Below, piece after piece: positions 22,865-26,326 of a stretch of DNA of 64,000 nt. Every line of letters starts with the position of its first letter. The first letter of the stretch is position 1. Below the pieces are notes generated by a model. That model was given only the letters and a program-made list of their open reading frames with translations, did no database searches and was not told the origin of the DNA. The stretch comes from Bdellovibrionota bacterium (GTDB lineage: Bacteria; Bdellovibrionota; Bdellovibrionia; Bdellovibrionales; JAEYZS01). The stretch covers positions 62,001 to 126,000 of the forward strand of contig JAZKEU010000001.1 of NCBI GenBank assembly GCA_040386775.1. Direction: 5' to 3'. The position numbers were made by a program, and so were the translations under genes.

Positions 22865-23557
22865 CTAAGACTCTAAGATAAAGAAATTAGCCTTGAGTTC
22901 GTTTAGGGCGATCACCCAGACACTTTGGGCGGTTGTTGCATACTTGGTTTGTAAAGTCTGAAGTAAATTCTTTTTGCTGATTTTACCATCGTGCAATTCG
23001 TCTATAATTGCAGCGTGATGAATATTCCCTTTAAAGAAAATAACCTGATTTGTCTCTGGGTTTTTAGATGCCAACAGTAAGGTTGGATTCTTTTTAGGAA
23101 GCAGAGGCTTGCTGAGCTTTTTTTGAAAATTCAAAACATATTCATGAATGTCGTACTCATGGCGAATCGCTTGCGCCAGTGGATTCATATATACGTTTGA
23201 AGTGGTTTGATTGTAAAGTGCGAGGTGAAGAGGAGTGGGATCGATTTCGATTTGGAATTTTGTAAATTCATAATCAATCAATTCCACGACGTAATCTTGG
23301 ATATCGAATTTTGTTTGGTATTTTCTGACGAAAAGTGGAAAATAGAAAATATTTTCTGTTAAATTTTCTTCATTGATTACAACTTCGGCGAAGTATTGAG
23401 GCAGCACGCTGGCGAAAAACTCTTCCCCGAGAAGCGCGAAAGAAAGAGGAGCTATTTTTTTGATCTTATGAACATAAAAAGAAAAATCCTTCTTTTTATG
23501 TTCAGGATTCATCATATTCTTCAATTTATAAAATAGCTCGCTCTTCATTAAGTCCAC
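22865..23557 (-). CDS. DUF2063 (HvfC/BufC-like) putative RiPP maturation partner
   Basis: A 230-residue protein whose layout fits DUF2063. The N-terminal helical domain has FALLGEEFFASVLPQYF, the equivalent of the family's LxGEExFxxLxxxY, then the Asn-Leu and FPLFV blocks and an acidic ELIDYEF helix. A smaller C-terminal domain holds VIFFKGN and DELHDGKISKKNLLQTL. In known systems this protein pairs with an MNIO (DUF692) iron enzyme to modify Cys in a secreted precursor peptide (HvfA, bufferins). The precursor-like gene lies nine bases upstream, and the GTG start (23557) uses AAGGA overlapping the upstream stop region. No DUF692 gene is in this window. The assignment rests on pattern similarity by eye. 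Confidence 0.55.
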   Translation of the reverse strand: MDLMKSELFYKLKNMMNPEHKKKDFSFYVHKIKKIAPLSFALLGEEFFASVLPQYFAEVVINEENLTENIFYFPLFVRKYQTKFDIQDYVVELIDYEFTKFQIEIDPTPLHLALYNQTTSNVYMNPLAQAIRHEYDIHEYVLNFQKKLSKPLLPKKNPTLLLASKNPETNQVIFFKGNIHHAAIIDELHDGKISKKNLLQTLQTKYATTAQSVWVIALNELKANFFILES

Positions 23558-23566
23558 AGTGAATCC

Positions 23567-23884
23567 TTATGCTTCTGTTTTCTTGTCTTCACAGTCGCAG
23601 TCTTTGTCGCCTTTTTTGTGCTTGTGAGCTTTGTCATTTTTTTTATGTTTACCGCAACCGCAGTCTTTGCATTTGCATTCTTTTCCAGAGGCTTCACATG
23701 CGCATGCCTTCTCTGCTTTTGGATCAGCTGCGTTTGCATCTTTAACCGCATCCTTAGCGTCAGCTACAGTTGTTGAAGCCGGTGCTTTACCTGCATTTTT
23801 GCCTTCTTGACATGGGCAAGCGAAAGATTTCTGTGAAACAGAAAAAATAAAACAAACGCCTAATAAAATACTCAATACCTTCAT
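23567..23884 (-). CDS. Cys-rich secreted peptide, candidate modified metallophore precursor
   Basis: A 105-residue protein: Sec signal peptide (MKVLSILLGVCFIF..., cut near SFA-CP), an Ala/Asp/Lys linker, and a Cys/His/Lys-rich tail. The mature part has ten Cys, mostly in CxC pairs (CPC, CAC, CKC, CGC, CDC), and a His/Lys block (GKHKKNDKAHKHKKG). The composition and signal are those of HvfA/BufA-type precursors that bind or buffer copper or zinc after Cys modification. It is translationally close-coupled to a DUF2063-like gene, which strengthens this reading. A plain metallothionein-like protein is the alternative. Confidence 0.6.
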   Translation of the reverse strand: MKVLSILLGVCFIFSVSQKSFACPCQEGKNAGKAPASTTVADAKDAVKDANAADPKAEKACACEASGKECKCKDCGCGKHKKNDKAHKHKKGDKDCDCEDKKTEA

Positions 23885-23950
23885 GGGTCTCTCCTTGTTG
23901 TTAGATCTGATTCTATGTTGTTTGATTAATTCTATCCAGCGAAAATAAAA

Positions 23951-24003
23951 AAACTCAAAGCCTTTCCTAAAATTTTTCTAAATTTTTAAGAAACTTTGAG
24001 TTT
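23951..24003 (-). terminator. Rho-independent terminator of the 760-residue lipoprotein gene
   Basis: A 10-bp perfect stem (AAACTCAAAG at 23951-23960 with CTTTGAGTTT at 23994-24003) closes a 33-base AT-rich loop. Read on the minus strand it is followed by a run of T. It sits just past the stop of the large Cys-rich lipoprotein gene and before the Cys-rich peptide gene, so those two are separately transcribed. Confidence 0.75.
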
Positions 24004-24043
24004 ATTGACGCAATCCTGCGACCTGGTTACGCGGCCTTACCGA

Positions 24044-26326
24044 TCATGGGCAAGGCGGCGGTAGATAACCAAGAGAAGTCGACACCGTGACCACGGCGCA
24101 GGTTTTTTGAGTCCAAACTTCGGTTTTATTCGTATTTTTAAAGCTTCCGAGGTATTCCGGAACATATCCTTTTGGATCCACCGTATTCTTAGCGCCGACA
24201 CCCATAGTGAAGGTCACGCCACCGATAGTTGCCGTTGCCGTGTTTGAGCAAGTTGAATTTTTAGGAGCATCCGCATCCATATCACCGCAAGAAGTTGTAA
24301 GGTCTTTGGTTTCGCCATTGTAGGTGATATTCATTGCGCTCGAAGTAAATATTTTTCCTTTTCCATGAGAGAATACGTGTTCAAATCCATCAGTGAATTC
24401 ACCCATGGCAACGTACTTCCTTCCACCGCTATACAAGAAAGTTCCTTTTAATGGCATATCTCCGGAACTACCCTGTCTGTAAACCGCGCACTGGCCAGTT
24501 CCGAAAGCCTGCTGAGTTACGGGGCTTCCTTTACAATCTTTTGAAGCCTCTTGGTTGATAAGAGGAGTCTTTATGAGATTTGGTTCTTCTTTTTCTTTGC
24601 AAGTACCAGATTCAACCTTGAACGGTAACATTCCCAACGTATCGGGCTTAGGGTTACAGATCACTTTTGCAGATCCTTTGCGAGAAGCCTTATCCCAAGG
24701 AGTAATGTTTGGATTGTCGTATTGAGTTCCGCCCACTTGCAGAGTTTCTCCGACCATGAGATTTCCAAATAAATTTCCAATGCAAACTTTTCCAGTCGAA
24801 GGATCACTCCACGTGATCATGGTTCCTGCAAAGGCATGACATGAACTTCCTTTGAGATCAGAAGAACTACACTCTTCTGCAAAGCAAGTTTTGGTTGTTG
24901 AAGGTTTTGGAGTCGTGCATAGCGCTTCTTCAACTGCAGCACCGTCATTTCTTATGCACGTTACTCTTCTAGTTTGAGTTCCTTCAGTTCCACACGCTAT
25001 TGCGCTGCATGCGCCGTAATCTCCAACATACCAAGTGTAAGTGTACTCTGGCGGGCATTCTGTAATTGGGCACATTTGTTGAGATGGATATGCATAGCCT
25101 GGATCAAACGAAGGGATGACTCCATTGTTACAAATTCTCGACTGAGAATTACACGCGACTCCACATCTTGGATTTTTAGCCCACTGAGTGATTGATCCTC
25201 CATGAGGGGTAGATCCGCAAGACAAACAGTTTAAAGTTTGATTTTCTGGTGGAACGGTACAGTTTTGAGTTTGGCCAGTTGGTTTAGCGCCAACGCCGGT
25301 AACACACTCAGCATCTGGAGCCGTTGTTGTATTTCCCTCGACGGTCTTTTTACAAATGTAATTTGTGATGGGTCTTGTACCTGCAGAGGATTCGCAAGGA
25401 CCTGTGCAAGCTCCAAATTGACTGGCTTCCCAAGAGTAAGTTGCTGGGCAAGAAGGTGATACTTGGCAAGTGGCAGGATTTTGAGTAAAGGTTCCTGCAT
25501 TTCCACCAGTTTCAAAAACTCCGTTGATACAAGCTCTGAGAGTTGTATCGCAAGGTTTTCCTCCGCATTGGGCTGATTGTTTTGCGAACTCTACAGTTTC
25601 ACCATGAGCGACGACAGCGTTAGTGAATGGATTGATACAGGATTTATTTCTAATATCAATCGTGTGAAAGAACGCAGGCTGTTCATCTTGTTCAAAATTT
25701 ATAGCAATTGCCTTAACAGTGTAAGTTCCAGTTTGCGTGTAAGTGTGCGAGGTAAAAGCATCTGGAGCAAGAGTGTACTCATTAACACCGTCGTTATTCA
25801 TATCCCAAAGAATTTGACCTTGGAAGCAAGGTTCAGCGTTGATTGAGAAAGGAGAAGTTTCTTCGTTCACGTATCCAATAGTCGGTCCACTGATCCCAGT
25901 TGGATTGACACAAATGTCATGGGCTAAAATTTGAAATGCTTTTTCTAGAGCGCAAGAGTTTCCATCAGATTTTTGGAAAGTGGCCTTTGCAACATAGCTT
26001 CCAGAACCTTCGTTAGCTCCATTGAACATATGGGACACGGTGGTTGTCGTTGTCGAAAGAATGTTGGTGCTGCCTTTTAAAAAATTCCATTGGATATTGT
26101 TTAAAGTGATTCCTGTTGGAGGGATGATTTCAAAGTTCACTGTCTTGTTGGGGTAAAGATTATTTGGTGGAGACATATCGATAGCGCCGCAAGAAGGTGA
26201 GACGTCGGTAGGGCCTTCGTTTGCAAATTCTTGGCTTTTATTTTTTGTACATGAAAGCAAACCGAGTGACACCGTCGTTATCACAAACATAAACAAGAAG
26301 TTGAATCTAAAAGATGATTTTTTCAT
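24044..26326 (-). CDS. Large Cys-rich lipoprotein with PKD-like and thrombospondin-1-like segments
   Basis: A 760-residue lipoprotein with lipobox LLSC at about residue 26. Two PKD/Ig-like regions follow (~40-135 and ~140-225, the second with HTYTQTGTYTVKA). A Cys-rich middle (~230-490) contains two TSP1-like units, each with an aromatic start, a GACxxxxC core and a later TRxxxC strand: WEASQFGACTGPCESSAGTR and WYVGDYGACSAIACGTEGT. Short CGG/CGS repeats (GxTVEFAKQ-like and GGSITQWAKN) precede each. The last ~270 residues are another Cys-containing domain of unknown type. It is probably a surface-exposed adhesin or binding protein; function is inferred from architecture only. Confidence 0.7.
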   Translation of the reverse strand: MKKSSFRFNFLFMFVITTVSLGLLSCTKNKSQEFANEGPTDVSPSCGAIDMSPPNNLYPNKTVNFEIIPPTGITLNNIQWNFLKGSTNILSTTTTTVSHMFNGANEGSGSYVAKATFQKSDGNSCALEKAFQILAHDICVNPTGISGPTIGYVNEETSPFSINAEPCFQGQILWDMNNDGVNEYTLAPDAFTSHTYTQTGTYTVKAIAINFEQDEQPAFFHTIDIRNKSCINPFTNAVVAHGETVEFAKQSAQCGGKPCDTTLRACINGVFETGGNAGTFTQNPATCQVSPSCPATYSWEASQFGACTGPCESSAGTRPITNYICKKTVEGNTTTAPDAECVTGVGAKPTGQTQNCTVPPENQTLNCLSCGSTPHGGSITQWAKNPRCGVACNSQSRICNNGVIPSFDPGYAYPSQQMCPITECPPEYTYTWYVGDYGACSAIACGTEGTQTRRVTCIRNDGAAVEEALCTTPKPSTTKTCFAEECSSSDLKGSSCHAFAGTMITWSDPSTGKVCIGNLFGNLMVGETLQVGGTQYDNPNITPWDKASRKGSAKVICNPKPDTLGMLPFKVESGTCKEKEEPNLIKTPLINQEASKDCKGSPVTQQAFGTGQCAVYRQGSSGDMPLKGTFLYSGGRKYVAMGEFTDGFEHVFSHGKGKIFTSSAMNITYNGETKDLTTSCGDMDADAPKNSTCSNTATATIGGVTFTMGVGAKNTVDPKGYVPEYLGSFKNTNKTEVWTQKTCAVVTVSTSLGYLPPPCP

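Follow-up and report, generated by a model that had tools for sequence, protein, structure and literature searches.

The gene pair and its neighbourhood

Within the window, the 64,000-nucleotide stretch of DNA from a Bdellovibrionota bacterium that was analysed here (GCA_040386775.1, contig JAZKEU010000001.1, positions 62,001 to 126,000), two minus-strand genes lying 9 nt apart encode a short Cys-rich peptide, predicted to be secreted, and, after it, a partner protein of the HvfC/BufC type (Table 1). A first-pass annotation made from the letters of the sequence had described this 105-residue signal-bearing peptide with ten mature Cys in CxC pairs and the closely following partner gene, and both open reading frames were indeed found there. 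It had also stated that no DUF692 (MNIO) gene lies beside the pair, which held: none is adjacent in the window, nor at the corresponding loci L005 and L006/L084 of related genomes. Between the peptide gene and the gene before it lies a 13-nt inverted repeat that probably marks the end of the latter. A promoter in this region was considered and rejected, as the promoter-like hexamers at 23910-23958 were not above chance. Further upstream, a 760-aa Cys-rich ORF, predicted to be secreted or a lipoprotein, occupies window positions 24044-26326 on the minus strand.

Table 1. Features of the peptide-partner locus, the resident MNIO operon and the related loci of genus g105. Positions are those of the window unless a locus is named.
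Feature	Position	Strand	Basis or remark
Cys-rich secreted peptide, 105 aa	23567..23884	minus	10 mature Cys in five CxC pairs and a Lys/His block
Sec-type signal peptide, residues 1-22	23819..23884	minus	cleavage between SFA and C, placed by eye
TVADAK motif, residues 39-44	23753..23770	minus	candidate recognition segment; inspection of family peptides
C-terminal Cys/Lys/His-rich core, residues 61-98	23591..23704	minus	presumed metal-binding part
HvfC/BufC-type (PME) partner protein, 230 aa	22865..23557	minus	profiles, AlphaFold model, Foldseek; GTG start
Shortened N-terminal helical (DUF2063-like) domain, residues 1-105	23243..23557	minus	models, alignment
C-terminal RRE-like (NGO1945_C) domain, residues 121-230, peptide-binding half	22868..23197	minus	PF22106, fold match
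AAGGA Shine-Dalgarno-like site of the partner gene	23564..23568	minus	overlaps the peptide stop codon
13-nt inverted repeat upstream of the peptide	23948..24006	.	sequence analysis
Bufferin-like operon	G000:C7:64205-67346 (L003:6206-9347)	minus	83-aa CKGK-type precursor, BufB-type MNIO, DUF2063 HvfC
g105 loci with a His-rich peptide before a short HvfC-like protein	L096, L097, L099, L100, L111, L114, L117		
Further such g105 loci	L119, L122, L123, L125, L127, L129		

The order of peptide then partner was kept in both other family genomes compared, G069 and G070, each of a different genus. The window partner is 48-49% identical to that of G069 and 28-31% identical to that of G070; the peptide stop and partner start overlap by 1 nt in G069 and are separated by 3 nt in G070, and both peptides (loci L005 and L006) carry a Sec signal and are Cys-rich. 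The pair adjoins lysA in the window and G069, and hflX and maeB in the window and G070. Conservation of the two-gene order in two other genera of the family indicates that the pair is more than a chance arrangement.

In the mature window peptide, all 10 Cys are accounted for by the pairs CPC, CAC, CKC, CGC and CDC, and five or more CxC were reached in shuffles of its mature residues with P = 9e-4. The same shuffle gave P values of 0.07 and 0.05 for two orthologous peptides, which are less strict in this respect, so that what is conserved is the general Cys-rich character and not the exact spacing. By eye, the three orthologous peptides have clear n-, h- and c-regions and an AxA-like site; they have in common the signal region, the A-C junction and the segment TVA[DS]AK, kept in all three, and differ in the Cys spacing of the core. 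In known MNIO systems the signal peptide is the leader recognised by the enzyme-partner complex, and the Sec signal of HvfA acts in a leader-like manner (PMC13419390); in the family studied here TVADAK is a candidate for the recognition segment. The window peptide matched no curated precursor family of Pfam or NCBIfam. EGKCG is absent from it by inspection, and the DUF2282 signature is absent by Pfam and NCBIfam. There was likewise no match to a metallothionein family in Pfam. The peptide is probably metal-binding.

Identity and fold of the partner protein

Partner proteins of MNIO enzymes are described as parts of the modifying complex that bind the leader peptide and enable the iron cofactor. 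The first-pass annotation had likened the 230-residue protein to DUF2063 and proposed a Pfam search, which returned no match to PF09836 at E values up to 1; plain Pfam DUF2063 membership is thus ruled out. The likeness itself stood on other grounds. The NCBIfam HvfC model NF050145 matched the protein with an E value of 1.3e-10 and 41.6 bits, under its curated cut-off of 142, a threshold passed by partners in 0 of 141 genomes of this order, MNIO-linked partners included; the MNIO-linked HvfC of the same genome scores even lower (17.8 bits). PF22106 (NGO1945_C) matched with an E value of 2.7e-4, also under its cut-off. When three family partners were aligned by hhalign to seventeen HvfC proteins from MNIO loci, the match was collinear over 188 columns (98.1%, E 9.1e-14).

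The structural comparison agreed. The AlphaFold model of the window partner (mean pLDDT 88.8, pTM 0.83) has the two-domain fold of NGO1945, with a helical N-terminal domain, which contains the LLGEEFF, FPLFV and ELIDYEF blocks, and an RRE-like C-terminal domain. Its best Foldseek match in the PDB was NGO1945 itself (3DEE; E 1.2e-6, probability 1.00), followed by the TglHI holoenzyme entries, in which chain A was the match (E 1.9e-4 and 9.8e-4), with nothing else below 1e-3; judged by length and fold, we take chain A to be TglI and not the TIM-barrel TglH. A direct sequence search of the PDB with the window protein matched no partner protein. Together, the profile and fold matches identify the 230-aa protein as an HvfC/PME-kind partner that is too diverged for the DUF2063 model.

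The single MNIO enzyme of the source genome

The genome search for DUF692 suggested in the first-pass annotation gave one match, on contig C7 (E 2e-99), and the protein passes the BufB model NF050167 with 328.7 bits. It is encoded in a bufferin-like operon with its own precursor and HvfC (Table 1), which continues with ORFs that we named, by inspection, DoxX-like, sigma-like and anti-sigma-like. The 83-aa precursor of this operon reached no curated family above its cut-off. Unlike the window partner, the C7 HvfC does match Pfam DUF2063, and the possibility that the window partner is a recent duplicate of it was ruled out (BLASTP E 2.1; AU p 0.013). Two of the three family genomes, the source genome and G069, have one MNIO each elsewhere. 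G070, a draft that is 96% complete and comprises 170 contigs, gave no MNIO match despite having the pair. Since intact bufferin-type MNIO genes score ~300 bits here, an overlooked bufferin-type enzyme is unlikely, but diverged MNIO genes score far less; given the completeness of the draft, absence of an MNIO from G070 is likely but not certain. An enzyme encoded elsewhere, as first proposed, therefore exists in the source genome, but the simple picture of an MNIO pair with a distant enzyme is not supported, because a precursor and a canonical partner already accompany the C7 MNIO, the window peptide shows none of the known MNIO-precursor signatures checked (EGKCG, DUF2282), and G070 keeps the pair with no MNIO match.

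Stand-alone partners elsewhere in the phylum

Profile searches for stand-alone partners covered 369 genomes of the phylum. The loose first-pass genome search with NF050145 missed the window protein itself, and the partner counts are therefore lower bounds. A stand-alone partner was found in 24 genomes of one Bacteriovoracaceae genus, g105, which was placed by its matching named records, mostly Bacteriovoracaceae MAGs and some labelled Bacteriovorax stolpii. At 13 or more of the 23 g105 loci with upstream sequence, a His-rich peptide with a Sec signal lies -1 to 55 nt upstream of the partner; such a peptide is not present at every g105 locus. These peptides, whose mature part is free of Cys, have 11-24 His and the common pattern HDKEHxHV...HHKDHDHKAHHPxH. 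The G228 peptide, read from the signal's own Met, has one Cys, inside the signal, and its first in-frame start takes in Cys-bearing upstream sequence. Only 2 of the 24 g105 genomes, G228 and G229, gave an MNIO match, weak and on a different contig from the partner. Because the mature peptides lack Cys, the usual MNIO chemistry of Cys oxidation cannot act on them.

Bdellovibrio-type genomes (L070-L082; for example L074:1957-2805), of genus g7, which we infer to be Bdellovibrio, encode a stand-alone HvfC-like protein of ~280 aa; its neighbour is an ORF resembling outer-membrane proteins, joined in several genomes by a creatininase-like gene. One of them, G011, consists of a single contig and gave no MNIO match. 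We considered these proteins as a further example of the pair and rejected them, there being no metal peptide among the neighbours listed. Separately, HvfC-like proteins, namely the G070 partner (L006:912-1496; E 1.2e-3) and 9 of 10 g105 partners (best E 7.7e-8), gave weak matches to the N-terminal part of TIGR04082, the model of the radical SAM maturase SbtM; this suggests that radical SAM enzymes, too, are served by the partner domain.

Shortened N-terminal halves and phylogeny

Crystal structures of TglHI and MbnBC show the MNIO docked by the N-terminal helical domain of the partner and the peptide bound by its RRE-type domain (PMC10880893, PMC8888699). Deletion of alpha1 or alpha3 of TglI abolishes enzyme binding, and its C-terminal domain binds the substrate (PMC10880893); deletion of residues 1-12 of MbnC likewise abolishes enzyme binding, and the C-terminal hairpin and linker of MbnC also contact the enzyme (PMC8888699). 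In our alignment, 85-112 residues precede a shared FP motif in MNIO-linked partners compared with 33-77 in stand-alone partners (window family: 73, 77 and 40; g105: 33-51; G076: 37), while the C-terminal parts are of normal size (130-157 in stand-alone and 130-164 in MNIO-linked partners). With its 73 residues, the window protein is modestly shortened, by ~12 residues relative to the shortest MNIO-linked partner. The open frames are themselves short (only 233 codons in the window and 167-205 in g105), so mis-called starts do not explain the shortening. Up to the counterpart of the fifth helix of the window model, the C7 HvfC model has seven N-terminal helices and the window model five, the first of them at low confidence; which helices the window partner would have lost is read from models compared without superposition.

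In the partner tree, the window family grouped with the Bdellovibrio-type stand-alone partners with support of 89/85, which is not strong, and the g105 partners grouped with MNIO-linked HvfC proteins of f12 (96/92). A clade uniting the window-family partners with the MNIO-linked HvfC of their own genomes was rejected (p-AU 0.013). The tree suggests two independent origins of stand-alone partners, but a single clade of all of them was not rejected (p-AU 0.095 and 0.149).

A proposed carrier module that may work without an MNIO

Our preferred reading, to which we give a probability of about 0.5, is that the two genes form a vertically inherited module with no need of an MNIO, the partner acting as the carrier of a metal-binding peptide that is exported. 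It draws on the occurrence of the pair in three genera, the lack of an MNIO match in G070, the Cys-free peptides of g105, the short N-terminal halves and the rejected clade with the MNIO-linked HvfC of the same genomes. Against it, an MNIO is encoded elsewhere in two of the three family genomes, G070 is a draft, the shortening of the window protein is modest, some g105 loci lack a His-rich peptide, and no such peptide was seen next to the long stand-alone partners of Bdellovibrio at the loci inspected. For the module we infer peptide binding, a carrier role, export, metal binding and a lack of modification, along the following lines. The peptide-binding RRE-like half of the partner is intact and the enzyme-docking half reduced. 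The partner would bind the precursor, with the Sec signal and the neighbouring TVADAK segment as the most likely contact sites, keep the thiol-rich chain unfolded and metal-free in the cytoplasm, and then release it to Sec. Outside the cell, the CxC pairs might bind soft metals (Cu, Zn or similar), making the peptide an unmodified, metallothionein-like buffer. The helper may thus have a job of its own, separate from the enzyme. A wider version, which we hold more tentatively and at somewhat less than even odds, is that one or more HvfC-type branches were never, or are no longer, linked to an MNIO and act as stand-alone carriers, with Cys-rich cargo in the window family and Cys-free, His-rich cargo in Bacteriovoracaceae.

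The main rival reading treats the peptide as a RiPP that is modified in trans: the window partner would recruit it to the BufB-type MNIO of contig C7 for Cys oxidation before export, and the bufferin system would then have the pair as its satellite. In favour of this, the peptide contains Cys and an apparent Sec signal and comes with a recognisable partner, a model-passing MNIO is present in the source genome and one is present in G069, and some Legionella genomes are reported to have more precursors than MNIO-linked loci, with modification from another locus proposed (PMC12452194). We nevertheless consider this route unlikely: the C7 enzyme is already provided with a precursor and a partner, the enzyme-docking domain of the window partner is reduced and the protein is not close to the resident HvfC by BLASTP or the AU test, EGKCG and DUF2282 are missing from the peptide, and G070 keeps the pair with no MNIO detected. 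Service in trans to a different modifying enzyme, such as one of the radical SAM type, would fit the apparent presence of the same domain at the N-terminus of the SbtM-type maturase, as seen in the weak matches of the G070 and g105 partners, yet the three loci inspected show no modifying enzyme next to the pair, and we regard this as quite improbable. Very improbable, in our view, is a decaying remnant of what was once an HvfABC locus, its enzyme now lost. The missing enzyme gene and the reduced N-terminal domain would be expected of such a remnant, but the frames are intact and tightly coupled, a Cys-rich peptide and a full-length RRE-like half persist across three genera at 28-49% identity, which points to lasting selection, and a similar state recurs in g105.

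If the wider version of the carrier reading holds, the basic job of the partner would be the handling of signal-bearing metal peptides and not service to one enzyme. Stand-alone partners beside metal peptides, among them Cys-free peptides in genomes with no MNIO detected, would mean that the handling of signal peptides can be separated from the work of the enzyme, and would provide small two-gene systems in which it can be tested without the enzyme.

Comparison with known systems

In the landscape paper, precursors without an MNIO are discussed and called rare, and partners are treated as parts of MNIO systems (PMC12452194). The paper also raises the question of how a precursor with a Sec signal avoids premature export, and its authors, Antoine et al., speculate that masking of the Sec signal by the partner may last until modification is complete (PMC12452194). 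In the open literature that we could consult, we found no description of partners that accompany metal peptides without an MNIO; subscription literature was mostly outside this survey, and we make no claim of priority.

Among known systems, the window partner resembles the HvfC/BufC PME-type 1 (NGO1945, 3DEE) in its two-domain fold, its profile match and the position of its gene after a Cys peptide with a Sec signal, but it lacks the DUF2063 signature, has a shorter N-terminal domain and has no MNIO beside it. An NGO1945/TglI-like fold without the DUF2063 signature is also seen in the TglI-like PME-type 2. That type was described on the basis of genes located after MNIO genes, and its precursors have no signal peptide (PMC12452194); the window partner, in contrast, does not follow an MNIO gene and its peptide has a signal. 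The peptide is like the bufferin (Buf1, Buf2) and oxazolin/HvfA precursors in being a short, Cys-rich, presumably exported product that has an apparent Sec signal and is encoded by the first gene of its unit. It differs from them in lacking EGKCG and any curated family, in its CxC pairs and in belonging to a family that persists without a detected MNIO. As a unit, the pair departs from HvfABC and BufABC clusters by having no MNIO enzyme, and from the resident C7 operon, which has its own enzyme, an unrelated precursor and a partner of a different branch. With metallothionein, only the CxC spacing is alike. The g105 units share with the window pair a ligand-rich signal peptide directly before an N-terminally short HvfC-like protein and the lack of an adjacent MNIO; they differ in that the ligands are His and not Cys and that the partner groups with the HvfC of f12.
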